From Acidisarcina polymorpha (GTDB lineage Bacteria; Acidobacteriota; Terriglobia; Terriglobales; Acidobacteriaceae), in contig NZ_CP030840.1 of assembly GCF_003330725.1 (NCBI RefSeq), positions 2,976,001 through 3,040,000 on the forward strand: a stretch of 64,000 bases of DNA. Direction: 5' to 3'. A program made the position numbers and the translations under genes. Below, one piece after another: positions 12,381 through 38,627 of this stretch (within the stretch, counting starts at the first letter, position 1; the number at the start of each line of letters is the position of its first letter). The notes beneath the pieces were generated by a model that saw only the letters and a program-made list of their open reading frames with translations, ran no database searches and was not told the DNA's origin.

Positions 12381-13391
12381 TTGATTTTGGAACGTTACGC
12401 GATAGGAGTGGATCTCGGCGGGACTAACCTTCGCATTGCCACTTATAAAGAGGACTCTTCTCCAAATGGAATGATTGCGGACAGCATCGGACTGCCTACT
12501 CGGGTGAAAGACGGACCGGATGCGGTCGCCGACGACATGAGCGGGGCAATCCGGAAGCTCTTAAGCAAGCATGGTCATGGAGGCTTTGCCGGTTTGGGCA
12601 TCGGCACTCCCGGGCCGCTGGATCTGCCGGATGGCGTTTTGCGCAATCCTCCAAACTTGCCTGGCTTCGACGGGTACAATTTACGCCGAGCAGTCGAGCT
12701 TCGGGTTGGTGTTCCGGCGATCATCGAGTCCGATGCGAACCTAGCGGCGCTGGCCGAATTTCGTCTGGGTTCCGGAAAGACCTATGGGGCGCAATCGCTC
12801 TGCATGCTGACCTTGGGCACGGGCGTCGGGAATGGAATTATCCTTGATGGTAAGGTGTGGAACGGCCACAACGGGATGGGCGGAGAGGCAGGGCACAATA
12901 CCGTGGATCCTGAAGGGGAACCTTGCCCATGCGGAAGTCGGGGCTGTCTGGAACTCTACGCGTCAGCAACGGGATTGAAGCGCATGGCCAAAGATTCGCG
13001 CGGCTCCCACGCGAATGACTCGGACGAATCAGCAATTCTGACGGCGCGGCACATCGCCGAGAGTGCAACCGCAGGAGACCATGCGGCACTCGCCGTCTTC
13101 GCCCGTGTCGGCACGGCTTTGGGAATCGGTGTTGGAGCATTGGTGAACACTTTGAACCTGCCGCTCTATGTGATCGGCGGCGGAATGTCGGCGTCCTGGG
13201 ATCTGTTTGCTCTGCAGATGATGGAGGAGTTGCGCATGCGCAGCTATGTCTACCGTATGAACGCGCCGACTGAGGAAGAATCGCGCGTACGCTCTCCCCG
13301 AAAAACGCATGTGGTGCGCGCCGAACTGGGCTCGGATGCAGGTATCCTTGGGGCCTGCTTGTTGCCGTTGATGCAGGGTCGTTCTGGATGA
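12381..13391 (+). CDS. ROK family sugar kinase
   Basis: A 336-residue ROK protein. It has the ATP phosphate motif DLGGTNLRIA near residue 11 and a GIGTPGPLD motif. ESDANLAALAE holds the catalytic Asp, and GTGVGNGIILDG follows. The zinc-binding signature is GGEAGH, then CPCGSRGCLE. No N-terminal helix-turn-helix is present, so it is a kinase rather than a ROK repressor. Likely phosphorylates a hexose released in the cytoplasm (glucose, mannose or fructose); specificity cannot be read. Translation probably starts at TTG 12381, eight bases after CAGGAG. It lies between a dead and a fragmentary sugar porter, and a LacI gene converges on it. Confidence 0.85.
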   Translation: MILERYAIGVDLGGTNLRIATYKEDSSPNGMIADSIGLPTRVKDGPDAVADDMSGAIRKLLSKHGHGGFAGLGIGTPGPLDLPDGVLRNPPNLPGFDGYNLRRAVELRVGVPAIIESDANLAALAEFRLGSGKTYGAQSLCMLTLGTGVGNGIILDGKVWNGHNGMGGEAGHNTVDPEGEPCPCGSRGCLELYASATGLKRMAKDSRGSHANDSDESAILTARHIAESATAGDHAALAVFARVGTALGIGVGALVNTLNLPLYVIGGGMSASWDLFALQMMEELRMRSYVYRMNAPTEEESRVRSPRKTHVVRAELGSDAGILGACLLPLMQGRSG

Positions 13392-13635
13392 AAGGCCGGA
13401 CTTGACGATGAATCGATGCTCTGTTCGAAGATAAGGCGGTTGACAGGTTGGACCGCCGCGGTCCAATTTTGATATGGCAGTGATCGCGAGCGCGATGCAA
13501 GAACTGACTTAGGTCTACTCGCAGACTCCGTCGCAACTCTCGGCCGGGCGACCGGCACTTCGAGGGGGCCGTTATATAACTGCTTTAGCTGAGCAGTCGG
13601 GATTTGCATGAAATTTGTGTACGCTGCCTGTCGCA

Positions 13636-13935
13636 CGATTCATTGGCGGCTTAGGGTCGAGATTTTCGGTCAGGTACTGTGTTCATCGGGGAAGCCACTT
13701 CGGCAATGACGAGATCAGCAGACTGGGCGTGTCCCAGGCGAACATCGTGCTCGGCATTTTGCTGGCCTACTTCTCGAACTTCGTCATCTCTGAATTCCAT
13801 CTAGGAGCCGATCAATGGGTCGGCAACTGCGGCGGTTCGAGGGAATCTGTTCCTCATCCTGCTGTTCGGAAATCCGCGCAGTACGGACGGGGCGCAATCG
13901 CGCGGCAACATGCGCGAAACTGACCACGATCAGAA
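13636..13935 (+). pseudogene. MFS sugar porter fragment, multiply frameshifted
   Basis: Pieces in different frames line up with the intact porter at 16465-17811. RFIGGLG is followed in another frame by SGTVFIGEA, then QANIVLGILLAYFSNF and a FHLGADQW segment. In a third frame LFLILLFGNPRST follows. The order matches helices 4-6 of the intact porter (VNIVIGILFAYFSNF, FHLGATEW, LFLIMLFGIPRSS). Both ends are missing. Confidence 0.65.
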
Positions 13936-13942
13936 AAGGACG

Positions 13943-14998
13943 TTATCGTCGAGGTCTCGTGGCACGAGGTCGGCGGCCAGACAGGCTGCAACCGCAAGAC
14001 TCACGTAAGATGAGCTCGGTCGACAGTACAACCGATGCGCGTTTTTCCGACGCTTGCCCATTGAGCCGATTAAACAGCAGCCTGGCGGCCTCATAACCAA
14101 ATTGCGCAGCAGGTTGGCGGACAGCGGATATGGTAGGTGAGAGCATATCCGCTAAATCGAAATCATCGAAGGAGAGTATGGGAACATCGCGGCCAGGTTC
14201 CTTCCCAAGAACTCGCAGGCCGCGTAGCGTAAGCATCGTGCAAACCCAGTTCATCGGAATAATTGCGTCCGCTTTATGCTTTTTGAAGACGGAATCGGAG
14301 AGCCATTCGCTGGTCAGCGCCGTTTCATGCTCAACCGTACACATCCGCGGTTCTAGTGAAGCGACGCTGATAGCATCGCGATAACCAGCCAAACGTTCGG
14401 AGCATGTGTATAAATGCGGACGAGCCCCAATCGCAACGATTCGTTGAAAACCATGACCCAACAGATGTTGAGTCGCTTCTTTAGCGCTGCGGCGATTAGG
14501 GATGGTTACGACGTCGAAACGGGAGTGCTTGACAGGCTGGTCGAAAGTTACAACTTTCAGCTCAGGGGGAATGACATCACTGAAATTGTCAGTCCGGCCG
14601 TCGGCGGGAGCAATGATCAGACCATCGATCTGTCGGCCAACAAGGCTTTCGATCTCGGAACGCTCGACATCAGGATAGCCGCCCGAGCTTGCCAGGATAA
14701 CCACATGCCCGTTGGCCCTGGAGACCTCTTGGACAGCCTTGACGGCGCTGGCAGTAAACGGATCAGACAAATTTGCGACAATCATTCCGATGGCTGCGGA
14801 TTTGCGTGCTTTCAAGCCCCGGGCCAACTCATTGGGACGGTAGCCAAGACGAGTCATGGCCTCACGAACCTTGCTTGTTTTGTCCTCTTTGACGGAAGCC
14901 GCTCCATTGAGCACGCGCGAAGCGGTCTTTAGAGAAACACCTGCCTCTCGGGCAACATCAACGAGGGTAGGGGCATTTCGATTCTGCGTTGTGGTCAT
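13943..14998 (-). CDS. LacI family transcriptional regulator 1
   Basis: A 351-residue regulator. Residues 11-60 form the LacI helix-turn-helix with hinge: TLVDVAREAGVSLKTASRVLN, ending RLGYRPNELARGLK. The rest is a periplasmic-binding-protein-like sensor domain (AIGMIVANLSDPFTASAVKAV, then VPILSFDDFDLADMLSPTIS). The hinge GYRPNELARGL should place it in the minor groove of a palindromic site. It faces the ROK kinase and is followed upstream by the GH76-MFS-GH38 genes. One of the two LacI proteins here should read TGACAGCGTTGTCA. Which one cannot be decided from sequence. Confidence 0.9.
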   Translation of the reverse strand: MTTTQNRNAPTLVDVAREAGVSLKTASRVLNGAASVKEDKTSKVREAMTRLGYRPNELARGLKARKSAAIGMIVANLSDPFTASAVKAVQEVSRANGHVVILASSGGYPDVERSEIESLVGRQIDGLIIAPADGRTDNFSDVIPPELKVVTFDQPVKHSRFDVVTIPNRRSAKEATQHLLGHGFQRIVAIGARPHLYTCSERLAGYRDAISVASLEPRMCTVEHETALTSEWLSDSVFKKHKADAIIPMNWVCTMLTLRGLRVLGKEPGRDVPILSFDDFDLADMLSPTISAVRQPAAQFGYEAARLLFNRLNGQASEKRASVVLSTELILRESCGCSLSGRRPRATRPRR

Positions 14999-15277
14999 AA
15001 ACGTTGGGTAAATATAAGCCTATCCTAGATGACCGGACCACTGGTATTAGAGTATCTTCCTGGATCGTATTTGATCCGCGGCTTCCCGCTGTTCCACTAC
15101 AGGTTTTTGTCGAGTTTTGAAGACCCGCGACCCTCCGACCGTTCGCCAAACGACCTTCATGGATGGTCTCGAAGTCAACAAGCGTAGCTCTCGAACATCC
15201 CGACCGAGCTTGAGGAAAATGTCGTCGCCACCCTAAACAGATAGCCGGAATGGCTTCATCCTTTCCCCATTTCTCAT

Positions 15278-16388
15278 TCAGTTGAACGCGTTCTTAGCTG
15301 ACAGCTCCGCTGCGCTCACCAAGACATCTAAAGCTGAGCTTTGGCTGCTTGCATCGGGGGTGCCCGACGTTGCGGACCAGACTTCACCGAGGTGGTAATC
15401 CGGTGAACGCACCTGATTCCAAATGCTGTCAGCATTTGTTCTCGCGAAACGGTCATAAGCTAGTTTTGGATCCTCTTCATTGAGAGCTCGCAGATTTCGC
15501 GCGAACGCACCTTTGAACTGAGTGCCATCGCCGCCGCATTTCGGTTCGCAGACGTCGTGAAGGACACCCTGCTGGTCAGTAAGGGCCGACAACGCGGCTC
15601 GGGCGATCTTGTGGGCTTCAGACAGAAGGGCTGCATCACCCGACACAGCGTGCAAAGCGATGAGGCCACCCAAGATCACACCTTGGTTGTAGGTCCATAT
15701 GGTGCGCTGATTGTTCTTACATGATTCGGTGAGTCCGTCATTTACGAGTTGTTCAGGGTTGATCATGCCCGAACCGACAAACCATTGCCACTCTCGGTTG
15801 GCCCAGGCCGAGTAGTTCGTCCGTTGCTTGGGATCTGTGGTGAGGACAGCCAGCCGTGCCGCGACCGAGAGAAACAACTCGTTTGCGATAGCGTTCTTGT
15901 ACTTTCGATCTTTGCTCCACCAGATCCCACCGGAGCATGTTTGAACCCAGCCGTAGGTCATGTCCGCAAAGATCGAAGCTGCGGTAGCGAGGTAGCGCTC
16001 ATCATGGGTGAGGTCGTACACATCAATCCAGGCGAGTGCCCACCAACCTTCGTCGTCGTAATACTTGTTGATAAATCCCGGGCGAGGTTTTCTGCGCGGT
16101 TGAGAGTGTGTTCGAGAAGACGAAATTGCATTCGCTTGATTTGGCAACGCGTGCATAGTCGGCAAGAACGGTGATAGCGTTTGCGGAATTCCACCAGCCT
16201 GTCGTTTTGTATAGGCCCGAGTCAAGATTATACCAGCTTTGAAGAGTACTTATCGCAAGAGATGCCCGTTCTTCGTAGGACGGGGTCTGTGCCGAGAGGA
16301 CGCCGCTCGACATCACGCACAGAAGGAGAAGCGGAGCGGCAAGCCAAATGAACGGGCGACGTCTCGATTCTGGAATGTAAGTCAACAT
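15278..16388 (-). pseudogene. GH76 family glycoside hydrolase (alpha-1,6-mannanase-like), one frameshift
   Basis: The N-terminal frame from 16388 holds a signal peptide (LAAPLLLLCVMSSGVLSAQ) and SLQSWYNLDSGLYKTTGWWNSANA. Near 16088 the reading frame must shift by one base to enter GFINKYYDDEGWWALAWIDV. The DD pair there is the catalytic aspartate motif of GH76. Downstream segments (CSGGIWWSKDRKYKNAIANEL, then WTYNQGVILGGLIAL) are also typical. GH76 enzymes cut alpha-1,6-mannan backbones outside the cytoplasm. The single indel may be a real lesion or a sequencing error. The rest of the frame is undamaged. Confidence 0.8.
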
Positions 16389-16464
16389 GCGTTAACCTCT
16401 TGAGTGTTCTAAATATGTCTTGATCGAATTCAAAGATTATTACGAATAGAGCAGCCCTTGCGAC

Positions 16465-17811
16465 TCACTCGATTCCCAACTGGAGCTGCAACTGTTCGAG
16501 CGACACCCACTTGGTTTCGGGATAAGCAAAGAGCACCACAACGAACTGCAACACCATCATCGAGGCGAAGAACACAAACGGGTATGCACCCGACGACTTG
16601 GCGAGCAAGGGAAAGGAATAAGCGATGACAGCATTCATAATCCAATGGGAGCTGCTTCCTAAGCTCTGCCCTTTGGATCGCACTTTAGTAGGAAACACTT
16701 CGTTGATATATACCCAGATGACTGCACCCTGCGAAACGGCGAAAAAGGCGATGTAAGCCATCAACAACCACACCAGTAATGCCTGATGGGAGTTCACAAA
16801 GAATACGTATGCCACACCAGCCAAACAAACCGCAGTACCTACCGACCCGAAGAGAAGCAGTCTCTTTCTCCCTAACTTGTCGATCACCGTTATGGCCAGA
16901 AGGGTTGCGACCAGGTTCGTAGCACCGATCGCCACCGCCTGCAGATCCCCGGACACTCGGCCGAAACCCGCCGCGGCGAAGATGTCGTTGAGGTAATATA
17001 GGATCGCATTGATCCCCGACAATTGATTGAACATGCCGATCGTGGTGGCGAGAAAGATCGGCTTGCGATACTTCCAGGAGAAGAGCGGCTCAGATCGATG
17101 TGCGCGCTCCGTATGGATGGAATCGACAATCTCTTTTAGTTCCGCCCAGGAATTGGGCGAGCCCATAAGCTCCAGCACTTGCCTAGCTTCGTCGATTCGG
17201 TCCTGTGTAACAAGCCATCGGGAGCTGCGAGGGATACCGAAGAGCATGATGAGGAAGAGTTCTGCCGGAAGGGAAGCAATTCCGAGCTGCCAGCGCCATT
17301 CCGTCGCGCCCAAGTGGAATTGAGCTATCGCGAAGTTTGAGAAGTAAGCGAACAGAATGCCGATCACGATATTGACCTGAAACATGCCGACCATGCGGCC
17401 GCGCCACCGAGCGGGAGCAAGTTCTGCGATATACACGGGCCCGAGTACGGAGGACCCTCCGATGCCAAGGCCGCCAACGAGTCGCGCGGCCAACAACGCG
17501 TGCCAGCTCCAGGCGAGTCCCGATCCTAATGCGGAAACGACATATAGCACGGCCATCGCGCGCAGCGTGTCACGACCGCCGAACTTTTGCCCGATGGCAC
17601 CGGCCGACATGGCTCCGATCACGGTGCCGATGAGCGCGATCGCGACCGTCAAACCCAGCTGCCAAGGTACCAAAGCGTAGACTCGGGTCAATTGGTGGGT
17701 CGTGCCCGCAATCACCGCCGTATCGAAGCCGAAGAGCAGTCCTCCCAGTGCGCCTACCGCTGTACCCTTGAATAGGTATCGATTCATCTTCAATGTGGCC
17801 CTGTGCTCCAT
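16465..17811 (-). CDS. MFS sugar porter (hexose:proton symporter type)
   Basis: A 448-residue, twelve-helix transporter and the only intact sugar porter in the window. Features are GGLLFGFDTAVIAG in helix 1, GRDTLRAM at loop 2-3, LAPARWRGRMVGMFQ after helix 4, PRSSRWL after helix 6, QLSGINAILYYLND in helix 7, and the terminal YPETKWVSLEQL. These are the signatures of the sugar porter family, and the transporter sits in the inner membrane. Start is ATG 17811, or the ATG eight codons on at 17787. It lies between GH38 and GH76 on the same strand, and the three probably form one transcript read from about 21.5 kb. Likely imports mannose or short oligosaccharides. Confidence 0.9.
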   Translation of the reverse strand: MEHRATLKMNRYLFKGTAVGALGGLLFGFDTAVIAGTTHQLTRVYALVPWQLGLTVAIALIGTVIGAMSAGAIGQKFGGRDTLRAMAVLYVVSALGSGLAWSWHALLAARLVGGLGIGGSSVLGPVYIAELAPARWRGRMVGMFQVNIVIGILFAYFSNFAIAQFHLGATEWRWQLGIASLPAELFLIMLFGIPRSSRWLVTQDRIDEARQVLELMGSPNSWAELKEIVDSIHTERAHRSEPLFSWKYRKPIFLATTIGMFNQLSGINAILYYLNDIFAAAGFGRVSGDLQAVAIGATNLVATLLAITVIDKLGRKRLLLFGSVGTAVCLAGVAYVFFVNSHQALLVWLLMAYIAFFAVSQGAVIWVYINEVFPTKVRSKGQSLGSSSHWIMNAVIAYSFPLLAKSSGAYPFVFFASMMVLQFVVVLFAYPETKWVSLEQLQLQLGIE

Positions 17812-17908
17812 CTACATCTTCATAAACGGCAATGGGTAGACACTTAGTGCGCCAGCCCCGGTCGAAGTTGAGCTGGGCCGACTTCCATCGAACTCTCAAT
17901 CGGTGCGA

Positions 17909-20900
17909 TCAGTGCGACTTGGCGTCAGCTGCAACTGCAGGGAGAACGTCATAGAGTGGTCGTACCGGCGTGACGGCCGGGCTTTCATCCGCTAGCGAGA
18001 TTGCCAGGATGCGAACGCTTGGATTGATGGGCAGCTTGATGGTCTTTGCACCGGAAGGAAGGTCGAGGACATACGCGAACAAATAGGAGTAAGCATAGGC
18101 CACGTTCTTTCCGGCGGCGTCTTGGTGATGGTCGCAGTACCAGGCGAGGTCGGCCCGTTTGATAAAGCCGGGTTTCAGACCGACCATCTCTCCATACCTG
18201 TCATGGGAGACATCAGGCGGGTTCCATTGTCTGTCGTCCCATTGTCCAATGAACCCGCCCCAATCCTCGATGTTCAGTTCCGCCTTCTCAGCACCAACGT
18301 CAAAGACCACTTTCTGATCACCGTCAGCCGATGCCGCAAGCAGGTAGATGCGGTTAAAGTGTCCCGCAGGAAGACTGATGGTTTGTCCCTTGGTCGTCAC
18401 CGCATTCGGTGTATTGCTCTTGGCCGGAGCCAGTTGGAAATTGACATCGTTGAATCGGATCTGGGCCGGTAGCATCCCTGCCGGATATGCATTGCCAATC
18501 AAAGCCGGTCTTGGAGGGATCGCCGTCATTGCTCGCGGTCGCGAGGTCATAGGGCAGGGTTACCGGTGTAGATTCCATGCCCTTGACACTGGAGGCGAGC
18601 GAGCCCAGATGGAGAGCGAAGGTCCGCGGCTGATAACCTCCGAAGGAAGTCATAAGTGCGCCGTCGCTTACGGTTGCCGGCCCGACCGGTTGCTCCTGTC
18701 CATTTACCTCGCGAGCATTCTTGACTGGCGCGGCGAAAGTCACCCTTACATCGGCTGGGGCTTACCATCAAGCTCAACCATGCGCACAATTACTTCATCA
18801 CTCAGTTCAGCTTTCTTAACTGCTAGAACCCGTATTCGCGGATTGCTTACCTTTAGCAAGGAAAACTCCTTGCCCAATGCACCTTCGCGCTTCGGTGTTC
18901 TGAATACCAGCAGCGGGGCGTTCAGCCGCTGCGCCTGCCAGTCGGTTTGTGCAGTGCGCCAGTCGGCTGAGTGCCCGGCAATTCCATAGATGAACTCATG
19001 GTGTCCGATATCTTGTGTGGCCTGATCCGGATAGCCCCCGGCAACTCCTGGAGTTCGAATTAGTGTAAGGCGGAGCGTGTTGTCGACTGGCTTGTCTGAT
19101 CCAGTTTTGTTGTCAGTCAGGATCGTTGCTCCATACGTGCCACTCATATCGGTGAGATCGATCCACTGGTGCGATGGTACTTCAAATTTCTTGGGCTGAG
19201 CCGTCGGGCGCTCGATGGTGCCGATGTCCCAGTTGTACGTCGCCATCACGTTTGACGCGGCGAGCGGAAAAGTCGCCTTGAGATTCGACTCCCGGGTCTT
19301 CCAGTCGATGACATTACCGAATTCAACCCGCCTTCCGCCATCGCCCGCGGAAAGACTGATCGTCTGCACGAAGCGTGAGCCTGCGGTTTCCCGTATAACC
19401 TCGAGAGCTACGCGCGCGGACCCATCTTCGACGACCCGAACCTGCGCCGGACCGGAAACAAATTCTTTCGGGGCGGCCTGCTCCTGTTCCCAGCCCATGT
19501 TCCAGGCCGGCCATTGGGCCGGATTGTCATAAGAGATGGCTAGCCGGGCTGGGGCCGCAAGCAACTCCTTGCCGACTTCCTTGTCGAACATACTTACAAC
19601 ATCGCCGTCACCGTTGAGCTGAAGGCGATAATAGTCGTTCTCCAACTTGTTTTGCGAAACGCTCAGAGTGGATGAGGAGATGACCGGCGTATTGACGGAC
19701 TGAACATCGTAGACGGCATATCCCACAGACGGCATGCTGGCCAAGAAGATTACCTTACCCTCGGAGATCTGGGCCGGAACATTTTTGCCATCAGGAGCGG
19801 TCACGACGACTGCCTTTGGCGTCCCGTTCGGAAAGCTGACTGAGGCTTCGACGACGTCCTCACGGGGAATGTTGAGAGGATTGAAGACAACCAGCGGCAC
19901 CCCTTTGGCGGTGGTATTCAGATTCGCCGCGACCCCTTCGACAGCGCTATTAAACACGCCGGCAAACTGGTTCAGCGCGATCACGTCGTCGTTCCATGCG
20001 AACTCATACGCGCGTGGCGTCGCGGTTCCGGCCGCCAGATCATGAAAGTGTGCACCCATCGCTAGCGTCCAGGCGCCATTGAGCCGCTCCAGCGGATACG
20101 GTCTCGCGCCTAGCAATTGAGCGGCAATGGAAGTCTTCTCCGCTGCATCCGCCAGTAGCTCCTCATGCCGGATCCAGCGCTTGTGATAGGCCTGCGACGT
20201 CAAAGATCCAGCTGAGTGGTTCGTGAGTTCCATCTCGCCGGTGTAGCGCGGCAGGCCGGCCGCCTCCTTCGGCGTGATGTTAAGGAACATCTGGTCCGCC
20301 GTGGCCGAGATTACGTGCACTGGACCATCACCCACCTTCACCATGGAGGTCTCGGCTTGATCATTGCCGTGCATTGCGGGCTGTTCCGGCGGCGGAAGCG
20401 CTACGGTGCTCTTGGTGACAATAGCCTCCAACGCCTTGACCGACGGCTCGCGCGGCGATCCGCCTATATCGCCCGTGCCGTAATAATGGTAGTCGGTGAA
20501 AACCCCACTTACTTCTCCATTGAGCTCGACACGCGCAGCCCAGTCGTTCTGGAACTTCTGCAGGTCGCGGTTTGCCTGAGACTCGACAAGAGCGGCTCGC
20601 GTCTGATGCAGGCTGTTGAGCTCCTGCATTTCCTTCTGGTCTGGCGGCTGACCATTCTTCCTAGCCTGTTGGAGTTTCTCCTGCAGTTCGCCGATCCTCT
20701 TCTCCGCGTCCGCCAGAGCCTGATTTGGCGGCGGTGGAGGGAGCGGTTCGCTGAGATCGGTAGTGATGTTACCGCCATAGCCGCCCGGATTTACACCGGC
20801 GAGCACGCTTTCCCGTCCGGTCCGACCCACACCCCCACATTAAACGGTGTACCCTCCGGCGTCCGCTCTAATGACTGAACGCCGCCGACATCGACCGACG

Positions 20901-29040: not shown

Positions 29041-31476
29041 TTGGCCGATTCAACACCGCGGCGATTTCGCTTGTACCCGCACTTGGTTGTTGCGGGCCCA
29101 AGTATTCTAGCCATGCTCGTCGTCTTCTCGATTCTTGCACCCCCACGCAACAAAGTCTTCGGCCGTGCACATGCAGACGATCCCAAAGCCGTGCTTTGGC
29201 CGCTGTCCATTGACTATCCTCTCGATGGTTCCATTTTTCCTCCGGGAATTACGCCGCCAACGTTTATTTGGCGCGATGCCTCAGCCAACTCGTGGCAAAT
29301 CGAGTTTGTATTTGCTGATAACTCGGCTCCAGTTCAAGTTGAAACATCAGGACAAAGAATGCAGATCGGGCCTATCGATCCGGACTGCGTAAGCAGTACG
29401 AATGAGCTGCCTCAGCTGACGCCAAAGCAAGCTGCTTCCCGGACATGGTCTCCCGACGTAGCCACCTGGGCAAAAATTCAGCAGCGCTCTGCTACTCAAC
29501 CTGTCATATTGACCATAACGGGATATAACTCTGCGCATCAGGCCACTTCGCAGTCGCGTATCGCTCTTTCTACTTCGCTTGATCCAGTAGGTGCGCCAAT
29601 CTTCTATCGTGATGTGCCGCTGATGCCAAGCCAGGGTGCAAACGGTACTGTGCAGCCGCTTTCCCCAACATCAATTCATCTGATCAAGTGGCGTCTCAGG
29701 GATGTGCGTCAATCCGAGAGCCACACAGTCTTGAAGGATATGCCCACATGCGCTAACTGCCATTCATTCTCCGGCGATGGGAAGACCATGGGAATCGATG
29801 TGGACGGACCTGCCAATGACAAGGGTCTTTACGCGGTCGTTCCTGTCGAACGTCACATTTCCATTCAGAATAAAGATGTGGTGCAGTGGAATACAGACGG
29901 CCAAGCCGGAAAGGTCAGGGTCGGCTTCATGTCTCAGGTTTCTCCGGATGGACGCTACGTCGTGAGCACCTTCGCCGGCTCGGCACTGGACATCTCCAAT
30001 ACGTATTACGTCACAAATTTTAAGGACTATCGATTCCTCCAGGTCTTCTATCCAACACGAGGCATTCTAGAGTGGTACGACAGAGCTTCAGCCACACGCC
30101 AGCCGCTCCCCGGCGCAGACAATCCGCGCTACGTGCAAACTGATGGAGTCTGGAGTCCTGACGGAAAATACATCGTCTTCGCTCGGGCTGAGGCAAAGGA
30201 TCCCTACCCCGAGGGCCAGCCGAAGGCGATACACGCCAACGATCCCAATGAAACCCAAATTCAATACGATCTTTATCGGGTGCCGTTCAATGATGGCCGC
30301 GGCGGGGTGGCCGAGCCCATCAGCGGCGCTTCACACAACGGGATGAGCAACAACTTTCCCAAGGTATCTCCGGATGGTCGGTGGATCGTATTCGTGCAAT
30401 GCCAAAATGGGCAATTGATGCGACCGGATAGCCAGCTCTACATCGTTCCCTTCGGCGGCGGTGAGGCACGGCGTCTAGCTGCCAATACATCTCTGATGAA
30501 TTCTTGGCACAGCTTTTCGCCGAACGGACGTTGGCTTGTGTTTTCCTCCAAAGCCCGATCGTTCTATACGCAAATGTATCTAACCCATATCGACGAGCAG
30601 GGGAACTCCAGTCCCGCAATTTTGATCGAAAACGCCACCGCAGCAAACCGGGCCGTGAATCTGCCTGAATTTGTAAACACATCTGGAGATGGGATTGAAG
30701 AAATCCAGGTGCCGGCGGTAAATCAATACAAGATGATTGACGAAGCTAGGCAACTGGAAGAAAAGGGAAAAGCCGACCAAGCGCTCGAGACATGGAAGAA
30801 AGCACTAGCGCTCGATCCCAGCAATGGAAGGGTTCAAAGCGGACTGGGCGCGTCGCTCTATTTTCATAGCAATGTTGAGGAGTCCTTTCAGCATCTGCGC
30901 GAAGCTATCCGCATTAACCCTCTATCGGCTCAGGACCACTTCTTGCTTGGCAAGTTCATGCTGGAACAAACTCACGCGGAGCAAGCCCTACCAGAGCTTG
31001 AGGCAGCTATCACGATCAGACCGCACTTCGAATTGTGCGAAGAGGCTCTGGGCAAAACTTTTGAGGCTTTGGGCAAAGATTCCGAAGCCCTGTCTCATTG
31101 GCGAAAAGCGCGGCTTATCGATCCGACTAGCGTTAGTGCGACGATCGGTACCGCCTGGCTCCTTGCTACCTCACCTGATGCTTCATTGCGCGACGGTGCT
31201 GAAGCCGTGCGCTTGGCTGAAAGCGCTGTAAATCTTCAGCCGGACAATGCTGAAGTGCTGGATACGCTGGCGGTTTCCTGCGCCGAAGAACGCTTGTTCT
31301 CTCGCGCCTCTTCTATAGAGACGCACGCTCTTGAACTGGCGGAAGCGCAAGCAAACAACTCCTTAACAGCGGCCATCCGTGTTCACGAAGCATTGTTTGC
31401 GAAGCAAAAGCCGTTCCATGAAGGCCGGGAATCTGTCGTCGCAGATCAAACCAGATGGAGCCCACGCTCCATGTGA
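29041..31476 (+). CDS. PD40 (TolB-like propeller) and TPR protein with a CxxCH motif
   Basis: An 811-residue protein starting at TTG 29041, eight bases after GGAGG. An N-terminal membrane segment (LVVAGPSILAMLVVFSIL, about 15-32) anchors or exports it. CANCH at residues 237-241 is a c-type haem attachment motif. Propeller repeats of the PD40 type follow (FMSQVSPDGRYVVS, GVWSPDGKYIVF, FPKVSPDGRWIVF, SFSPNGRWLVFSS). The C-terminal third is TPR (ALETWKKALALDPSN, HLREAIRINPLS). The function is not known. The combination appears in acidobacterial and planctomycete secreted proteins near glycan genes. It lies between the receptor and GH2, in the same direction. Confidence 0.75.
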   Translation: MADSTPRRFRLYPHLVVAGPSILAMLVVFSILAPPRNKVFGRAHADDPKAVLWPLSIDYPLDGSIFPPGITPPTFIWRDASANSWQIEFVFADNSAPVQVETSGQRMQIGPIDPDCVSSTNELPQLTPKQAASRTWSPDVATWAKIQQRSATQPVILTITGYNSAHQATSQSRIALSTSLDPVGAPIFYRDVPLMPSQGANGTVQPLSPTSIHLIKWRLRDVRQSESHTVLKDMPTCANCHSFSGDGKTMGIDVDGPANDKGLYAVVPVERHISIQNKDVVQWNTDGQAGKVRVGFMSQVSPDGRYVVSTFAGSALDISNTYYVTNFKDYRFLQVFYPTRGILEWYDRASATRQPLPGADNPRYVQTDGVWSPDGKYIVFARAEAKDPYPEGQPKAIHANDPNETQIQYDLYRVPFNDGRGGVAEPISGASHNGMSNNFPKVSPDGRWIVFVQCQNGQLMRPDSQLYIVPFGGGEARRLAANTSLMNSWHSFSPNGRWLVFSSKARSFYTQMYLTHIDEQGNSSPAILIENATAANRAVNLPEFVNTSGDGIEEIQVPAVNQYKMIDEARQLEEKGKADQALETWKKALALDPSNGRVQSGLGASLYFHSNVEESFQHLREAIRINPLSAQDHFLLGKFMLEQTHAEQALPELEAAITIRPHFELCEEALGKTFEALGKDSEALSHWRKARLIDPTSVSATIGTAWLLATSPDASLRDGAEAVRLAESAVNLQPDNAEVLDTLAVSCAEERLFSRASSIETHALELAEAQANNSLTAAIRVHEALFAKQKPFHEGRESVVADQTRWSPRSM

Positions 31477-31681
31477 CCCATGAGCGGCATATTGGCTGTT
31501 CGATGGCGCATGTCATACAAAAAATCCTGAAACGAATGAATTGTGCGGTCTCGATCATGGCGAACGGGATAACTCATCAGCCGAATTCGCGAAGTGAAGT
31601 TCGCTTGCACACAGCAAAAGAAACATTGCCCGTAGTTGAGTTTGTCACGAAATTAGACCTTTATTTCCAATGAGGTATTTC

Positions 31682-34201
31682 ATGCTTATCGGATTTACGC
31701 GCCGCGACTTTTTGAGCAGTGCGGCGAAGGCAGTGGTCGCTTCGAGGTTGCCTGTCAATGTCGATTCAGAAAGCGCTACAGAAATCATTCTGCCGCTCCG
31801 CCGAACTAACTTCGATGACAATTGGACATTCTTAAAGGGAGACGTACAAGGGGCCCACCTACCCGAGTTTAATGACGAGAACTGGAACAAGACCAATTTG
31901 CCTCACGACTGGAGCATCGAAGGTCCCTTCAGCAAAGATGCTCCAGGGGGCGCCACATGTGCTTATCTGCCGACGGGGATCGGCTGGTATCGGAAGCAAT
32001 TCACACTGCCACGTGCCTCAGCCGGGCGAAAAATAGCCATTCAGTTCGATGGCGTTTACCAGCGAAGTGAGGTCTGGATCAACGGTCACTGGCTGGGAAT
32101 GCGTCCTTATGGCTTCATCAGTTTCGTTTACGATCTCACGCCGTATCTGCGGGTGGGTCACCAGCCGAATGTTCTCGCTGTTCGCGTCGATAATTCTTTG
32201 CAGCCAAATGTGAGATGGTATTCCGGCTCAGGCATATACCGGCATACTTGGTTGATCAACACGACGCCCGTCCATATTGCGCACTGGGGAACCTGCGTCC
32301 GCACTCCTCAAATCGACGGCAAGAGCGCAATCGTAGAAGTCACAACCCGCGTGCAGAATGGTCTTCTGCAAGCGGCTCCATCTTCGCTTCGTACTTTCAT
32401 TCAAGACAATGATGGTAAGACGATACAAGAGGCTACAACGAATGCTGAAATTGACGCAGATGGCGATTTTGTCTTTACCCAACGTATCGAGATACTGTCC
32501 CCGACACTTTGGTCGACAGATGTGCCTTATCTTTATTCCGTTGTTCAGGAGCTGGAGCACAACGGGCACGGTGTGGACACGACAACGACACCTTTCGGTG
32601 TACGCTCCATCTGTTTTGACGTTGATAAAGGATTTCTGCTGAACAATGAGCGCGTCAAGTTGAATGGAGTTTGTCTTCACGGAGACGCCGGCGCGGTGGG
32701 GACGGCCGTTCCCGAGCGGATGTGGCAACGGCGGCTTAGTCTGCTCAAAGAGATGGGATGCAATGCGATTCGCTGCAGCCATAATCCTCCGGCGCCAGAG
32801 TTTCTCGATCTATGCGACACGATGGGTTTCATGGTCATGTTTGATGCCTTTGACGAATGGCGTGTGGGTAAGTCACAAACACCGCTATATGGCTATCACA
32901 AGTATTTTGATGAATGGTCGCATCGTGATTTGAAGTGTATGATCCTGCGCGATCGCAATCACCCATCTATTGTTATCTGGACGGCTGGGAACGAGGTGCC
33001 CGACCAGGGTTCGCTGAGGGGAGTCGCAACTCTGCGCGGATTGAAGAAAATTTTGCAGACGGAAGATCCGACGCGCCCAGTCACCGTGGCTTGTGACGGG
33101 ATCGCTGCCGATCCCGCCGGGGCGTTGCCAGAGTTTTTAGCCGAGCAAGATGTGGTGGGATACAACTATGTAGACCGCTGGCGTGACAGACGGGAGAAGT
33201 TCTATAGCATTGATCGGCATCAGTTTCCTGATCGACGGTTTATTGGAACGGAAAGCGTCGCGTTAAGAGGCGCGCGCGGGAACTATAGGATTGGTGCAGA
33301 AGCAGCCCTATATGTTGACAAAAGCACCAACCTGCTTGTCGAGGTCGAGCAGCTACAGAAGTTCATCCAAACATACGACTACGTGAGCGGCGATTTCATG
33401 TGGACAGGAATCGATTACTTAGGCGAGGCGTTATGGCCCGCAAAAGCTACGTCAAGCGGGGTGCTCGATACTTGCGGTTTCCGGAAGGACAGCTACTACT
33501 TCTATCAAAGCCTGTGGGCAAAGACGCCAGTGCTTCATCTTTCTCCGCATTGGAATTGGAAGGGGCATGAAGGCTTAGTCATTTCGATTATCTGCTACAC
33601 CAACTGCGATACGGTTGAGCTCTTTGTGAATGGAAAGAGCTGGGGAGTAAAGGGTTATGCATTTCCAAGACCAGGGATGGAAAAACGATACGGAAATTAT
33701 CCGGCGCGCGCGAAGGTATTGCAAACCACGGCAGACCTCCATTTGTCGTGGGATGTTCCGTACGAAGCCGGAACTCTGAAGGCCATAGGCGTCAAAGAGG
33801 GAAAGGTCGTCAGCACTGTAGAAGTTTCGACAACTGGAGAACCGTCACGTCTACTTCTATCCGCAGATCGGCAGACGCTTGACGCTGATCGCCGCGATGT
33901 GGTTCACGTTACAGTGGAAATTCAGGACAGTGATGGGCGCCGCGTGCCTACCGCTAATAGTGTCGTGACCTTACAGGTCCATGGAGGAGGCCGGCTTCTC
34001 GGCATGGATAACGGTGATCCAGAAAGCCATGAAGATTACAGAGCCGCGCAGCATAGGGCGTTCAATGGCCTGTGCCTTGCCCTCATCGGTCCGACGGATC
34101 GCGCGGGCGATATTGAAATTGCGGCATCTTCCCCAGGTTTAGCGCAAACAACTCTTAGGTTGACGACCCGACGCTTGAAGTCGTCGTCGACGGTCGGCTA
34201 A
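31682..34201 (+). CDS. GH2 family glycoside hydrolase (beta-galactosidase / beta-mannosidase-like)
   Basis: A protein of 839 residues from ATG 31682, preferred because GAGG lies seven bases upstream; an in-frame ATG at 31670 adds four codons. A Tat signal TRRDFLSSAAKAVVAS starts the protein. The sugar-binding domain includes GVYQRSEVWINGHWLG and an immunoglobulin-like domain follows. The TIM barrel has IRCSHNPPAPEFLDLCD, acid/base Glu438 (IWTAGNEVPDQ) and nucleophile Glu524 (FIGTESV). The C-terminal domains resemble the DUF4982 and Ig-like extensions of GH2. Linkage specificity is unclear. In a mannan or N-glycan locus, beta-mannosidase or beta-galactosidase activity would be plausible. Confidence 0.85.
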   Translation: MLIGFTRRDFLSSAAKAVVASRLPVNVDSESATEIILPLRRTNFDDNWTFLKGDVQGAHLPEFNDENWNKTNLPHDWSIEGPFSKDAPGGATCAYLPTGIGWYRKQFTLPRASAGRKIAIQFDGVYQRSEVWINGHWLGMRPYGFISFVYDLTPYLRVGHQPNVLAVRVDNSLQPNVRWYSGSGIYRHTWLINTTPVHIAHWGTCVRTPQIDGKSAIVEVTTRVQNGLLQAAPSSLRTFIQDNDGKTIQEATTNAEIDADGDFVFTQRIEILSPTLWSTDVPYLYSVVQELEHNGHGVDTTTTPFGVRSICFDVDKGFLLNNERVKLNGVCLHGDAGAVGTAVPERMWQRRLSLLKEMGCNAIRCSHNPPAPEFLDLCDTMGFMVMFDAFDEWRVGKSQTPLYGYHKYFDEWSHRDLKCMILRDRNHPSIVIWTAGNEVPDQGSLRGVATLRGLKKILQTEDPTRPVTVACDGIAADPAGALPEFLAEQDVVGYNYVDRWRDRREKFYSIDRHQFPDRRFIGTESVALRGARGNYRIGAEAALYVDKSTNLLVEVEQLQKFIQTYDYVSGDFMWTGIDYLGEALWPAKATSSGVLDTCGFRKDSYYFYQSLWAKTPVLHLSPHWNWKGHEGLVISIICYTNCDTVELFVNGKSWGVKGYAFPRPGMEKRYGNYPARAKVLQTTADLHLSWDVPYEAGTLKAIGVKEGKVVSTVEVSTTGEPSRLLLSADRQTLDADRRDVVHVTVEIQDSDGRRVPTANSVVTLQVHGGGRLLGMDNGDPESHEDYRAAQHRAFNGLCLALIGPTDRAGDIEIAASSPGLAQTTLRLTTRRLKSSSTVG

Positions 34202-34386: not shown

Positions 34387-35517
34387 ATGCAACGGATTGC
34401 CGTTCGCGTCCTTTCAAGTCTTCTTGTAATTATTCTTTCTGCTCCGGTCATGGCCGAAGATATGTTTGTATACTTCGGATCGCACGGAAGTGGGCCGCAT
34501 ATAGGGTTCTCGCTTGCGCACTTTGATACCGAGACGGGGAAGCTGACCGAACCTGTCTTTCTCGAAGAAGCAGTGGCGCCTGCGTATTTTATTATTCGAC
34601 CGGACGGCAGACGTCTTTATACCTGCAACTCGTTTCCGGGCAGTTCGGTGAGCGCGTACGCGATCGATCCTGCCACTGCCAAACTGACGCTTCTAAACCG
34701 GCAACCGAGTGGAGGGGGCGACCCTAGCTACGTAAGCTTGGACCCAAGCGGACGGTATTTGATGGTTGCTAATTATCTCGGGGGGAGTGCCGCGGTATTC
34801 GCGCTGCGCCACGACGGCAGCATTGGCAGGCGTACGGCGTTTGTTCAGCATGTTGGAGCCAGCCTGGATCCCAATGATCCAAGGCATGCCCATGCGCACT
34901 CGATTCGCTTCGATCCTAGTCATCGATTTGTGCTGTTGGCCGATCTCGGACTGGATAAAATTTTCGTTTATCGTCTGAACCCGAAGACGGGCGCGCTGAC
35001 GCCGAACGATCCGCCATTCGCGACCGTTGCACCCGGTTCGGGCCCGCGCCACATCGCGTTCGATCCGCGCGACCGCTATGTGTATGCAATCAACCAGACA
35101 GCCAATAGCATTGTTGGTTTCGGATGGGATTCAAATCGCGGTATCCTGACCCGATTCGAGACTGTATCCACGCTCCCGAAAGGCTTTAAGGGTGAGAATA
35201 CGGGATCTGAAATCCTCATGCATCCAAGCGGTAAATTTCTCTACGCCACCAACCGTGGGAATAACAGTGTCGCGGTGTTTTCCGTCCAAGCGGATACGGG
35301 GCGCCTTACACCTGTACAGTACATCTCAACCCAGGGCAAAACGCCACGAAATGCCGACTTCGACCCCACGGGCAAATGGCTGTTGGTGACCAATAAGGAC
35401 AGCAACAATGCCGTGGTTTTCCGGATTGATCAATCAACTGGTCAACTGACTCAGAACGGAGACCCAATTTCGGTCCCGGCTCCGTTTTGCGAGAGATTTC
35501 TTCCGGCAGGGAAGTGA
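34387..35517 (+). CDS. Lactonase family protein (6-phosphogluconolactonase-like seven-bladed propeller)
   Basis: A 376-residue secreted protein with signal peptide IAVRVLSSLLVIILSAPVMA. Propeller repeats are of the YkgB/Pgl lactonase type: FIIRPDGRRLYTCN, YVSLDPSGRYLMVANY, HSIRFDPSHRFVLLADLG, HIAFDPRDRYVYAINQ, EILMHPSGKFLYATNRG, NADFDPTGKWLLVTNKD. Cytoplasmic relatives hydrolyse 6-phosphogluconolactone. An exported copy more likely acts on unphosphorylated sugar lactones or is a structural propeller. It lies between GH2 and RidA on the same strand. Confidence 0.85.
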   Translation: MQRIAVRVLSSLLVIILSAPVMAEDMFVYFGSHGSGPHIGFSLAHFDTETGKLTEPVFLEEAVAPAYFIIRPDGRRLYTCNSFPGSSVSAYAIDPATAKLTLLNRQPSGGGDPSYVSLDPSGRYLMVANYLGGSAAVFALRHDGSIGRRTAFVQHVGASLDPNDPRHAHAHSIRFDPSHRFVLLADLGLDKIFVYRLNPKTGALTPNDPPFATVAPGSGPRHIAFDPRDRYVYAINQTANSIVGFGWDSNRGILTRFETVSTLPKGFKGENTGSEILMHPSGKFLYATNRGNNSVAVFSVQADTGRLTPVQYISTQGKTPRNADFDPTGKWLLVTNKDSNNAVVFRIDQSTGQLTQNGDPISVPAPFCERFLPAGK

Positions 35518-35741: not shown

Positions 35742-36233
35742 ATGAATGAATCAACCAATTTACTTGAAACGCTTGCTCACACTCCCGTGGAGAAGCGTGC
35801 CATTACCAATCACGGCGTGCTCAACGAAGCGTACGCGTATGCCAAACCCAGTTCGTTCTCGCGAGGCATGCGCATCGAGCTGAATGGGTTCACAATCCTG
35901 CTGATCTCGGGGACGGCATCGATCGACGAAAATGGCAAGAGCGTGCACGTTGGCGATTTTCGCGCGCAGATGCGGCGCACCCTGGAAAATATTAGGGGCC
36001 TACTGGAGAGCGAAGGCTGCACCTGGCACGATATCGTGCGCACTACATGCTACCTGCGCGACATTGAACGAGATTACGAAGCATTCAATGAAGAACGCAC
36101 TGCTTACTTCGCGGAGCGGGGGCTTGACCCGCTGCCTGCCTCGACCGGGATTCAGGCAATACTCTGCCGGCCGGAACTCCTGGTGGAGATTGAAGCCATC
36201 GCCATGTTCAAGACAGTGAACAGTGCCTCATGA
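35742..36233 (+). CDS. RidA family protein
   Basis: A 163-residue protein with AAGGAGG before ATG 35742. RidA-type core segments are FTILLISGTASIDENG, MRRTLENIRGLLESEGCTW and TTCYLRDIERDYEAFNE. The C-terminal part is ASTGIQAILCRPELLVEIEAIA, where true RidA proteins have a catalytic Arg in RxxV. Here CRPELLVEIEAIA keeps the Arg. RidA enzymes deaminate reactive enamines. Several relatives of this slightly longer type sit in carbohydrate clusters with unknown roles. It probably shares a transcript with the lactonase and GH92. Confidence 0.8.
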   Translation: MNESTNLLETLAHTPVEKRAITNHGVLNEAYAYAKPSSFSRGMRIELNGFTILLISGTASIDENGKSVHVGDFRAQMRRTLENIRGLLESEGCTWHDIVRTTCYLRDIERDYEAFNEERTAYFAERGLDPLPASTGIQAILCRPELLVEIEAIAMFKTVNSAS

Positions 36234-36449
36234 TTCGTGATTCAAGATGGGATGCTGAACTAGGTTGAAGTCTGCCAAACATTCCTACCGATCGCGCCTC
36301 GACGTGCCGGCGCTCCGCCTCACTCGCGAATCCGAAAGCCCACAGGTCTAAAAACAAACCCAACACGATGGATAGGGAGCCATACCCGCAATGAATGCGT
36401 TCAAAGGCAAGTTAGAGCGTAAGTACGGAATTCTGAGGAGGGTGTCGCG

Positions 36450-38627
36450 TTGGCAACGATAAGCATATCGAAAGGCAACTGCCTGTCAGCTGTTTTGATC
36501 TCAATTATGGTCGTTCCGCATGCACTCTCTCAGCGACAGCCGGTCGACTATGTAAACTCGCTCATCGGTACAGCTCCGATGACCGATAAGGAGTACTTGG
36601 GCAATAATCCCGCTCCGGGTGAGGAACTATATTCCGGAACCGTAAACCCGTGTGCCATGGTTCCAGACCCAGGCGGATATCTATGTGTTGGCCCTGTAAC
36701 CGGCTTTGACGGCGCGTATCATGTGCGCGGGTCGGGGTATCGCTTTGATGATGCAACAATAATGGGCTTCACTCAAATGAATGGCGAGTATAGCAATGAA
36801 AACAGGCTATTATTCATGCCGACCATTGGCCCAATAAAGACGAGCCCTGGCAGCCGAAAAGATCCCTCTTCGGGCTATCGGTCGACCAGAGATACGCAAA
36901 GCGAGAAGGGATCGGCTGGATATTATTCCGTACTCCTTACAACTTATGGCATAAAAGTGGAGCTTACTGCTACGGCGCATTGTGGTTTTCATCGCTACAC
37001 GTTTCCCGTTTCCCGGCAAGCCAATATTCTCATCGACATGGCCAACTCGCGGCCGGCGGTTTCGAATGCCTCCCTGTCCGTAATAGATAAGCACACTATC
37101 GAAGGTTTTCAAACGGGCGGAACTAGCACTGTTTACTTTCGTGCGGAGTTTAATAGGGACTTCACGTCTTCGGGGACCTGGAAGAGCGGCGTCTTGGCCC
37201 CGAATTCTTCTCAGGTGAGTGGAACTCCCGTGGGAGCTTATGCCAGCTTCAACACCTCGCCGAGCGAGCCGGTCCTTGTCAAAGTAGGCACATCCACCAT
37301 TAGTCTTGCCGACGCCGCAGCCAATCTTAAGGAAGAAATACCATCGGGTACGAGGTTTGAGGCGATTACGAGCCAAGCTAGGACCCTTTGGAGCCAGATA
37401 TTAGATCGAATGCTAGTTGAAGGCGGCTCCGAAGGGGACCGAACAAACTTTTACACGGCTGTATATCGCATGGCAGCAGGTCCCAAATATTCCTGGTTCC
37501 CGTTCTACGATGCCAACGGAATGCTTCTTGCTCGAGGTGAAGATTGGGCATCGCAGCGAGTTGCCAATAAGGGGGGATTTTGGGGGTGGCATTGGGGCGG
37601 GGGCTATTGGGGACCTGGAAATGTCTCGAGTCTGCTGGGGTTGTACAAAATGGGAGTCTATGGCATCGACCTCGATGCGGCGTATAAGGAGCTACGCAAT
37701 CAGGCGTTGAACGGAGGCGGCGCCGCGGGCGAAGCCTATCGACGTTACGGGTATATACCTGCCGACTCTGGGGTGAACGACTACGTCAATCGCTCTATAG
37801 GGTTATCTCTCGATGATCGTGCTCTTTCAGAACTAGCTAAACTGACTGGCAATGAGACTGATTCCGAGTTCTTCTTTAAGCGTTCGCAGAGCTATAAGGC
37901 GCTTTACGACGCATCGTTGGGGTTTTTCGCGCCACGTCGCGCGGACGGGTCGTGGATTCTTCCGCTGGATCCGGCGGAGCCTCACGCAGAGGACATGTAT
38001 CGGGAGGGAAATGCGTGGAATTACTTGTGGTTCAATACGGGGGACATACCTGGACTTATCGAGTTGCTGGGTGGTCCTCAGAAGTTTGCTGCAAGGCTAG
38101 ACACATTCTTCACCGAACGCTACAACCCCAGAGTGCCTCTTCGCGACCTGACGGGAGTAGTCGGCTTATATTTTCATGGAAACGAGCAGTATAGGCACAT
38201 CCCATATCTTTACGACTATGTTGGACAACCTTGGAAAACTCAGGCACTTGTTCGAAGAATCCAGAGCGATCTGTACCGGCCTATACCCGCCGGACTATGC
38301 GGCATGGACGATTTCGGAGATCTGGAGGGTTGGTATGTAACTAGCGCGCTTGGTTACGTCCAAGTCGATCTCGCAAGTAAATATTATCAGATAGGAAGTC
38401 CACTGTTCCCAAAAGTGACAATCCAGCTGCCAGGTGAGCATCCCGGCACCTTTACTATTCTGGCAAATCACGTATCGAACTCGAACAAGTACATTCAGTC
38501 TGCCAGGTTGAATGGTAGACCGCTTAACGTTCCGCGCTTTACGCAACTCGATATGGGCCCCGGAGGCAGCCTCGTCTTCGAGATGGGATCAACACCTAAC
38601 TTTAATTGGGGAGCGGAAGAGCCTTAG
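36450..38627 (+). CDS. GH92 family glycosidase (alpha-1,2-mannosidase-like), divergent
   Basis: A 725-residue protein starting at TTG 36450 with GAGGAGGG upstream. A signal peptide ends near HALSQ. The N-terminal domain is GH92-like (YVNSLIGT, VNPCAMVPDPGGYLCVGPVT, GAYHVRGSGYRFDDATIMGFTQ). The catalytic barrel includes GLYFHGNEQYRHIPYLYDYV, then GQPWKTQALVRRI, and CGMDDFGDLEGWYVTSALGY, where common GH92 enzymes have GNEDxGxMSAWY. The usual WDTYR motif of the barrel is not obvious, so it belongs to a divergent branch. GH92 enzymes are calcium-dependent exo-alpha-mannosidases. It is the last gene of the mannan-type locus. Confidence 0.8.
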   Translation: MATISISKGNCLSAVLISIMVVPHALSQRQPVDYVNSLIGTAPMTDKEYLGNNPAPGEELYSGTVNPCAMVPDPGGYLCVGPVTGFDGAYHVRGSGYRFDDATIMGFTQMNGEYSNENRLLFMPTIGPIKTSPGSRKDPSSGYRSTRDTQSEKGSAGYYSVLLTTYGIKVELTATAHCGFHRYTFPVSRQANILIDMANSRPAVSNASLSVIDKHTIEGFQTGGTSTVYFRAEFNRDFTSSGTWKSGVLAPNSSQVSGTPVGAYASFNTSPSEPVLVKVGTSTISLADAAANLKEEIPSGTRFEAITSQARTLWSQILDRMLVEGGSEGDRTNFYTAVYRMAAGPKYSWFPFYDANGMLLARGEDWASQRVANKGGFWGWHWGGGYWGPGNVSSLLGLYKMGVYGIDLDAAYKELRNQALNGGGAAGEAYRRYGYIPADSGVNDYVNRSIGLSLDDRALSELAKLTGNETDSEFFFKRSQSYKALYDASLGFFAPRRADGSWILPLDPAEPHAEDMYREGNAWNYLWFNTGDIPGLIELLGGPQKFAARLDTFFTERYNPRVPLRDLTGVVGLYFHGNEQYRHIPYLYDYVGQPWKTQALVRRIQSDLYRPIPAGLCGMDDFGDLEGWYVTSALGYVQVDLASKYYQIGSPLFPKVTIQLPGEHPGTFTILANHVSNSNKYIQSARLNGRPLNVPRFTQLDMGPGGSLVFEMGSTPNFNWGAEEP

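Follow-up and report, generated by a model that had tools for sequence, protein, structure and literature searches.

A stretch of 64,000 nucleotides from the chromosome of Acidisarcina polymorpha (the window; C1:2976001-3040000) carries a group of glycosidase, transport and regulatory genes that we read, with fair confidence, as a LacI-controlled locus of the CUT type (carbohydrate utilization with a TonB-dependent receptor, TBDT) acting on glycans with an alpha-1,6-mannan backbone, probably a beta-galactosylated fungal or lichen galactomannan. The locus is real and conserved, probably co-regulated, and of the CUT kind with an unusual acidobacterial make-up, and we treat it as one functional unit because 14 of its 16 genes have relatives gathered in another genus and because an operator-like palindrome is common to its parts. 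The TBDT gene adjoins genes for sugar-degrading enzymes, an arrangement conserved in that other genus (genome G587), and an inner-membrane sugar transporter lies inside the locus (the open MFS gene at 16465-17811), both of which are expected of a CUT locus. The 7.6-Mb genome is assembled in five contigs, of which C1 is the chromosome, with a completeness of 96.4%; genes were called from open reading frames (ORFs) and Pfam matches above curated cut-offs, and 20 ORFs in or beside the locus were scanned. The locus proved wider than the originally predicted 12381-38627, as conserved partners and operator-like sites occupy about 9842-44428:

9842-9857: operator-like palindrome of LacI type, exact, ahead of the second MFS gene and at the point where homology to a second copy on contig C4 starts
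10716-11988, + strand: second MFS sugar porter (MFS 2), interrupted, with a 2-nt indel near 11200 when compared with the C4 copy, which is open; start approximate, taken from the C4 ORF
12381-13391, + strand: ROK-family sugar kinase (Pfam PF00480; NCBIfam scores below cut-offs only)
13943-14998, - strand: LacI regulator 1 (Pfam), with orthologues in C4, G587 and L006
15278-16388, - strand: GH76 (endo-alpha-1,6-mannanase family), interrupted; open part 15278-16225, frameshift near 16080
16465-17811, - strand: MFS sugar porter (MFS 1), open (Pfam)
17909-21504, - strand: GH38 alpha-mannosidase, interrupted by three frameshifts; Pfam domains at 18746-21504
21646-21661: operator-like palindrome, exact, between the divergent GH38 and GH125 genes
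21841-23334, + strand: GH125 (exo-alpha-1,6-mannosidase family), open (Pfam)
23799-24872, + strand: LacI regulator 2 (Pfam), with a recognition helix different from that of LacI 1
25216-25231: operator-like palindrome, one mismatch, ahead of the receptor gene
25327-25342: operator-like palindrome, exact, ahead of the receptor gene
25362-28937, + strand: TBDT of Oar type, CarboxypepD_reg and OMP_b-brl_4 (Pfam), 80% identical to G587
29041-31476, + strand: PD40/TPR protein (Pfam) with a CxxCH motif (CANCH, by eye), 84% identical to G587
31670-34201, + strand: GH2 of beta-galactosidase type (Pfam, PDB matches)
34387-35517, + strand: 7-bladed lactonase-family protein (Pfam), 87% identical to G587
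35742-36233, + strand: RidA-family protein (Pfam), 78-80% identity beside the receptor in three other genomes
36450-38627, + strand: GH92 variant without the WD-motif segment of the mannose subsite (Pfam, alignment, model)
40217-41980, - strand: FG-GAP/ASPIC-UnbV protein, conserved receptor partner (Pfam)
42196-43881, - strand: TPR protein, conserved receptor partner (Pfam)
44413-44428: operator-like palindrome, one mismatch, some 530 bp upstream of the TPR gene

The original prediction had proposed, from the sequence alone, an alpha-mannan locus with five glycosidase families, a TonB receptor, an MFS porter, a ROK kinase and two LacI genes, all of which are present by Pfam above the curated cut-offs, as are the lactonase, RidA and CxxCH/PD40/TPR proteins that it listed (the CxxCH motif by eye). 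The mannan locus with LacI genes holds in its families, in the clustering of relatives of 14 of its 16 genes in a second genus and in the common palindrome, but not as an intact locus, GH38 and GH76 being interrupted. The open GH125 gene matches its family over the full length (PF06824 positions 1-413 of 414, 502 bits), and its start looks twin-arginine-like by eye.

The synteny search that had been suggested as a check came out in favour of the locus. A single contig of G587 carries relatives of 14 of the 16 genes, all open, within about 36 kb and at about 50-87% identity: FG-GAP (82%), PD40 (84%), TBDT, TPR (71%), GH125 (71%), ROK, MFS, GH76, GH38 (74%), GH2 (81%), lactonase, GH92 (83%), LacI 1 and MFS 2. 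A RidA-domain protein of G587 was rejected as the orthologue of the window RidA at 39% identity, closer relatives being found in G231, G248 and G246. In Granulicella sp. L46 (locus L006) the order is GH38-GH76-MFS-ROK-GH125-LacI-MFS, and its GH125 is the best named match of the G587 enzyme (75%); the named matches of the window GH125, at 63-74%, belong to Acidobacteriaceae or Acidobacteria where a group is given. Matches to GH125 occur in 60 of 200 genomes of the family sample, some of them partial, those to the GH38 query in 174 of 250 (many at 33-38%) and those to the GH92 query in 110 of 250, where, among the matches listed, identity outside the own genome reaches at most 48% over part of the protein.

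CG-centred palindromes in the intergenic stretches revealed one shared motif, WTGACARCGYTGTCAW, and none was found in 10 kb of coding sequence. The window holds six matches with up to two mismatches (0.15 expected), and the five exact sites in the 7.6-Mb genome all lie in the two copies of the locus (window 9842, 21646 and 25327; C4:128215 and 140355). With up to one mismatch the genome has 14 sites, compared with one for the reversed pattern; the nine one-mismatch sites comprise window 25216 and 44413, C4:125300 ahead of the C4 receptor gene, the intergenic C1:3124330, 3137071 and 3156774, and three inside long ORFs. The site at C1:3124330 precedes a GH2-like gene, and the one at C1:3137071 stands between a GH2 gene and a LacI-1 paralogue (59%), 96 bp upstream of the latter, after which comes a GH92 gene; this GH2/LacI-1 paralogue/GH92 group (L223, C1:3132001-3148000) is a candidate further member of the regulon. 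The 60 kb fetched from G587 contain five sites with up to one mismatch, two of them exact and four intergenic: one in the TBDT/TPR interval, one upstream of ROK-MFS-GH76, one upstream of GH38-GH2-lactonase-GH92, one separating a further GH2-like gene from its neighbour, and the fifth inside the longest frame of a second GH92 ORF, close to its start. L006 has no site at up to one mismatch and four with two mismatches, including ones ahead of GH38 and between ROK and GH125. Among the 34 named loci scanned, L006 included, a site was present in one (L047), 177 bp ahead of a GH125 ORF.

LacI 1, in the stretches compared the window LacI with orthologues in C4, G587 and L006, shares with these orthologues and with its paralogue the segment VSLKTASRVLN, which we take to be the recognition helix, and LacI 2 differs there. 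LacI 1 is likely the cognate regulator of WTGACARCGYTGTCAW, to which it is predicted to bind. LacI 2 is a less likely candidate, having no orthologue in this role in C4, G587 or L006 and another recognition helix; relatives of about 38-41% stand at separate LacI-TBDT-GH38 loci.

The window copy is interrupted. Six-frame reading revealed that GH76, GH38 and the second MFS gene (about 10716-11988) continue in other frames, and alignment to the C4 copy placed the differences at 2 nt near 11200 (MFS 2), 1 nt near 16080 (GH76) and 5, 1 and 1 nt near 18495, 18751 and 20811 (GH38), an extra 1-nt difference near 15291 affecting the last GH76 residues only. GH38, a family named in the original prediction, is spread over several frames at 17909-21504, with the GH38N, middle and C domains in pieces, whereas single open frames of 1202, 1223 and 1177 aa exist in C4, L006 and G587. 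For GH76 the predicted family stands and the Asp-Asp pair (YYDDEGWW) lies in the open part 15278-16225, but profile positions 1-80 are missing from the ORF and are continued in another frame, and the gene is open on C4. Since GH38 and GH76 each form one open frame in C4, L006 and G587, the simplest assumption is that the changes are on the window side. With five frameshifts in some 6 kb of coding DNA the locus shows a local excess: of the 65 receptor genes scored in the OMP_b-brl_4 barrel family (from 103 candidates, a gene in two pieces at C1:151 kb being counted once), four have an in-frame stop or truncated frame, and of 17 ACR_tran matches one has a stop.

Very recent decay and local sequence error are both possible causes. 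A fully intact locus, whose frameshifts would stem from errors of sequencing or assembly, has, in our estimate, somewhat less than an even chance. Several of the indels are of one base, two of them beside short homopolymers, the frame-corrected reading shows neither in-frame stops nor a surplus of amino-acid changes along the window branch, and a second GH92 copy and a GH2-like gene (C1:3121-3124 kb), both no more than 125 kb downstream, are likely frameshifted too. Set against this, two indels are of 2 and 5 nt, and the five fall in about 6 kb while so few of the scored receptor genes are damaged and the 13 other locus genes are open. The GH2-like gene (C1:3120843-3124234; L222 4843-8234) is split over two overlapping frames of 845 and 343 aa and has an operator-like site ahead of it. 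The second copy of the GH92 variant (L167, C1:3082001-3102000, about 9634-11780) is about 80% identical and frameshifted in its last quarter, with stops following the shift.

The second copy of the left half lies on C4, a 196,405-base contig that carries window 9841-23338 inverted, with 83% DNA identity over gap-free columns. GH38 (1202 aa), GH76 (343 aa), MFS 2 (424 aa), ROK, LacI 1 and GH125 are open there, and MFS 1 is broken by two frameshifts, four in-frame stops and an inserted complete IS6-type transposase ORF (C4:133169-133867), so that each of the seven left-half genes is open in at least one of the two copies. We do not take these different broken genes as proof of selection, since with three of seven and one of seven broken an absence of overlap is expected by chance with a probability of 4/7. 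Synonymous divergence between the copies is about 0.25-0.30 from MFS 2 to MFS 1 and 0.93-1.08 in GH38 and GH125, which makes them look mosaic, and dN/dS is low (0.09-0.31). By eye and motif, C4 carries recombinases, several copies and remnants of IS6 type, and a ParA-like gene accompanied by a small neighbour; no gene for replication was recognised on it, and its ends share 178 nt at 83%. We call it plasmid-like. Among PLSDB plasmids the matches to GH92 and the C4 GH38 (70 and 200 records) all stayed below 60% identity.

The same genome holds a separate LacI-TBDT-GH38-GH92-GH76 locus (L160, C1:2838-2858 kb), an arrangement that recurs, whole or in part, elsewhere: among 18 regions fetched around GH38 relatives in 16 other genomes, six have GH76 within the stretch and four have GH92. 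The window could accordingly be a decaying former mannan system whose work is done by this third locus, which we consider unlikely. The third locus has open frames for all five of its genes, while GH38, GH76 and one MFS gene are frameshifted in the window, the C4 MFS gene is heavily damaged and the second GH92 copy (C1:3092 kb) is frameshifted as well. Yet GH125, LacI 1, ROK, MFS, the receptor, GH2 and GH92 are open in the window, dN/dS between the copies is low, and operator-like sites occur in both copies and not in the third locus, where none was found with up to two mismatches.

As to the substrate, GH76 and GH125 together indicate an alpha-1,6-mannan backbone. GH2, proposed as a mannan enzyme, is of beta-galactosidase type instead: its best four PDB matches are all named beta-galactosidases, and its NCBIfam scores for GalA and GalB stay under the respective cut-offs. 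Galactofuranosides are substrates of some GH2 enzymes. In lichen galactomannans, as described in the part of PMC6272487 available, the main chain is alpha-1,6-Man and the side chains are alpha- or beta-Galp, beta-Galf and alpha-Man, and an excerpt of PMC6796803 gives Neurospora galactomannan as alpha-1,6-mannose with galactofuranose; for lichen Acidobacteriaceae, GH92, GH125, GH38 and GH76 are noted together and tied to fungal mannan in a passage of PMC11542873. Given the GH76/GH125 backbone, the GH2 type, these lichen and Neurospora structures and the repertoire of lichen Acidobacteriaceae, a beta-galactosylated fungal or lichen galactomannan is probably the most economical guess.

The alpha-1,2 type that had been expected for GH92 is not supported. 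The protein matches PF17678, PF07971 and TIGR01180 and aligns with GH92 enzymes in both halves; the EGNAW Glu, GNE and DD motifs are aligned, and E519 and D621 are invariant in a 19-sequence alignment, the aligned Asp of the C-terminal half presumably being the catalytic base. Fold, EGNAW Glu, GNE and Asp pair are common to it and the exo-alpha-mannosidases BT3990, BT3130, BT3965 and 7zgm. By contrast, the mannose-subsite stretch of BT3130 with the WD motif is absent: the residues aligned with Asp353, Trp390, Cys399 and Met400, which, with the acid Glu, are assigned to the mannose -1 subsite and catalysis in the section of PMC5930347 at hand, are gone, and a short GGFWGWHWGGGYWGPGN stretch stands instead, as in the G587 orthologue. 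The WD motif is kept in 20 of 23 aligned GH92 proteins, the exceptions being those of the window, G587 and L186 (G306, about 32-37% identical), and the Trp/Cys-Met part is missing in six of the 20 that keep WD, so that it is not universal. A frameshift in the window does not account for the gap: the other two frames lack the segment, and the short stretch recurs in the G587 orthologue and in the damaged second copy. In a survey of 396 genomes of the phylum that scored at most two candidates per genome, matches at E <1e-80 came from the own genome, G587 and G306 only. An AlphaFold2 model (mean pLDDT 77, pTM 0.83, low confidence over most of 345-389) best matches GH92 structures, at a TM of about 0.8 for the nearest, other folds following from E of about 1e-13. 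Judged from these alignments, activity on mannose is doubtful and another specificity possible.

GH38, GH92 and GH125 enzymes also act on N-glycans, and the locus might serve high-mannose or hybrid N-glycans of glycoproteins, whose arms GH92, GH38, GH125 and GH2 would trim in the periplasm, rather than cell-wall mannan. The best match of the window GH92 among solved sequences is 7zgm, titled a plant N-glycan specific alpha-1,3-mannosidase, and a GH2 of beta-galactosidase type could trim complex arms. We nonetheless regard this as distinctly improbable, as the gene gatherings of G587 and L006 include GH76, a family of endo-alpha-1,6-mannanases, and no endo-beta-N-acetylglucosaminidase or PNGase family was found among the 20 scanned ORFs in or beside the locus.

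The predicted absence of SusD was borne out: neither PF14322 nor PF07980 has a match in the own genome, and a Bacteroides control was detected each time. Since these two families are absent genome-wide, the lack of SusD is a trait of the genome and not of this locus; across the phylum sample, PF07980 occurs in 4 of 396 genomes. At least 65 receptor genes in this genome belong to the OMP_b-brl_4 family, and ASPIC/UnbV matches number 23 (C1, C4 and C5). Of the 20 ASPIC genes on the chromosome, ten have a scored receptor within 10 kb (3.1 expected; 7 of 5000 rotations reach 10) and four within 5 kb (1.7 expected; 626 of 5000 rotations); by clusters the count is 6 of 14. We doubt that FG-GAP/ASPIC proteins are general SusD substitutes, given no clear excess at 5 kb and a pair in the window that is itself more than 10 kb apart. 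A TBDT-PD40(CxxCH)-RidA cassette with TPR and FG-GAP/ASPIC genes recurs apart from the mannan enzymes of the window in three of nine regions around PD40 relatives (L199, L200 and L203; 10-20 kb of three genomes, the L199 contig ending there), with GH2 as a neighbour in L200 and GH35 in L203; a PD40 relative was found in 42 of 398 genomes. This cassette is possibly a SusD-free uptake unit of its own.

In the mechanism that we propose for a mannan-backbone locus of the CUT type, the receptor would import oligosaccharides across the outer membrane without a SusD lipoprotein; the exported GH76 (endo), GH125 (exo), GH38, GH2 beta-galactosidase and GH92 variant would cut them in the periplasm; and the MFS porters would take up the sugars, which the ROK kinase would phosphorylate. 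LacI 1 would bind WTGACARCGYTGTCAW at three places, upstream of GH38/GH125, of the receptor operon and of an MFS gene, and be released by an inducing sugar. In its boldest form, a SusD-free LacI regulon for beta-galactosylated alpha-1,6-mannan of lichens or ascomycetes, with a GH92 of new specificity and with chromosomal and plasmid-like copies that have lost different genes and are both needed by the cell, the proposal is rather unlikely to hold as a whole.

A number of points weigh against the proposed locus. With two key enzymes broken, the window copy alone may not be functional, and the frameshifts could be assembly errors, the frame-corrected GH38 having no in-frame stop and 57 amino-acid changes on the window branch versus 68 on the C4 branch. 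The C4 copy adjoins a different receptor (24-28% identity), and G587 lacks LacI 2 and a close RidA. The palindrome was derived from this locus, which makes its exactness there partly circular and leaves only the outside sites as independent; 3 of the 14 sites lie inside long ORFs, and cassettes L199, L200 and L203 have no site with up to two mismatches. Finally, the receptor ligand may be a beta-galactoside and not mannan, given that the cassettes stand free of the mannan enzymes and beside GH2 or GH35.

From Xanthomonas, TonB-receptor CUT loci are known that lack SusD and have a LacI-type repressor, for example the sux locus in excerpts of PMC1790865, and the available part of PMC5343134 describes LacI-type NagR regulons with TonB receptors in the same genus. 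The window has in common with the sux locus a TonB receptor, an inner-membrane sugar porter, degradative enzyme(s), a LacI/GalR-type repressor (here a candidate) and the lack of SusD. It differs in being acidobacterial, in its Oar-type CarboxypepD_reg receptor and several alpha-mannosidase families, in the added PD40/TPR/CxxCH, RidA, TPR and FG-GAP/ASPIC partners, and in a left half that is present twice with different genes broken. Bacteroidota mannan polysaccharide utilization loci (PULs) are under hybrid two-component control, whereas the window has LacI genes and a palindrome. It also lacks their SusC/SusD pair and carries MFS porters and a ROK kinase inside the locus. With the alpha-mannan PULs of Bacteroides thetaiotaomicron and Salegentibacter Hel_I_6, as far as the text of PMC9213526 at hand goes, it shares GH76, GH125, GH92 and GH2, and with the B. 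thetaiotaomicron mannan pathway also GH38; Hel_I_6 has six GH92 enzymes and a GH2 nearest to arabinofuranosidase, whereas the window has one GH92 with an altered active site and a GH2 of beta-galactosidase type (excerpts of PMC9213526). The repertoire in the available part of PMC11542873 consists of gene families per genome, to which the window adds a locus, a receptor-enzyme linkage and a candidate operator. No acidobacterial mannan locus was described in the titles and abstract openings among the matches listed, in which subscription journals are thinly covered. PMC5900883, on Acidobacteria genomes, does not mention SusD, TonB, GH92, mannan, mannosidase or 'polysaccharide utilization' (by word starts), and the parts of PMC3174227 and PMC5343134 at hand hold no precedent for the gene set.

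With SusD rare in the phylum and at least 65 receptors here, how Acidobacteria take up complex sugars is in question, and the locus is a testable case that offers a receptor, four recurring partners, a candidate operator, a candidate repressor and a mostly open counterpart in a second genus. The GH92 variant provides a test of whether a 'mannosidase' family extends beyond mannose, and the two differently broken copies a test of a chromosome and a plasmid-like element sharing one pathway.

Elsewhere in the window, a 383-aa ORF between the GH92 and FG-GAP genes (38993-40144) has YD-like repeats by eye and no Pfam match, and a phage-integrase-family gene lies downstream of the locus (47151-48071). 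An inverted pair of 2.54-kb elements, 99% identical and 4.8 kb apart, occupies 53558-56097 and 60863-63402; each contains a 697-aa ORF, of which that at 53902-55995 was scanned and carries IS91-type zinc-binding and Y2 transposase domains.

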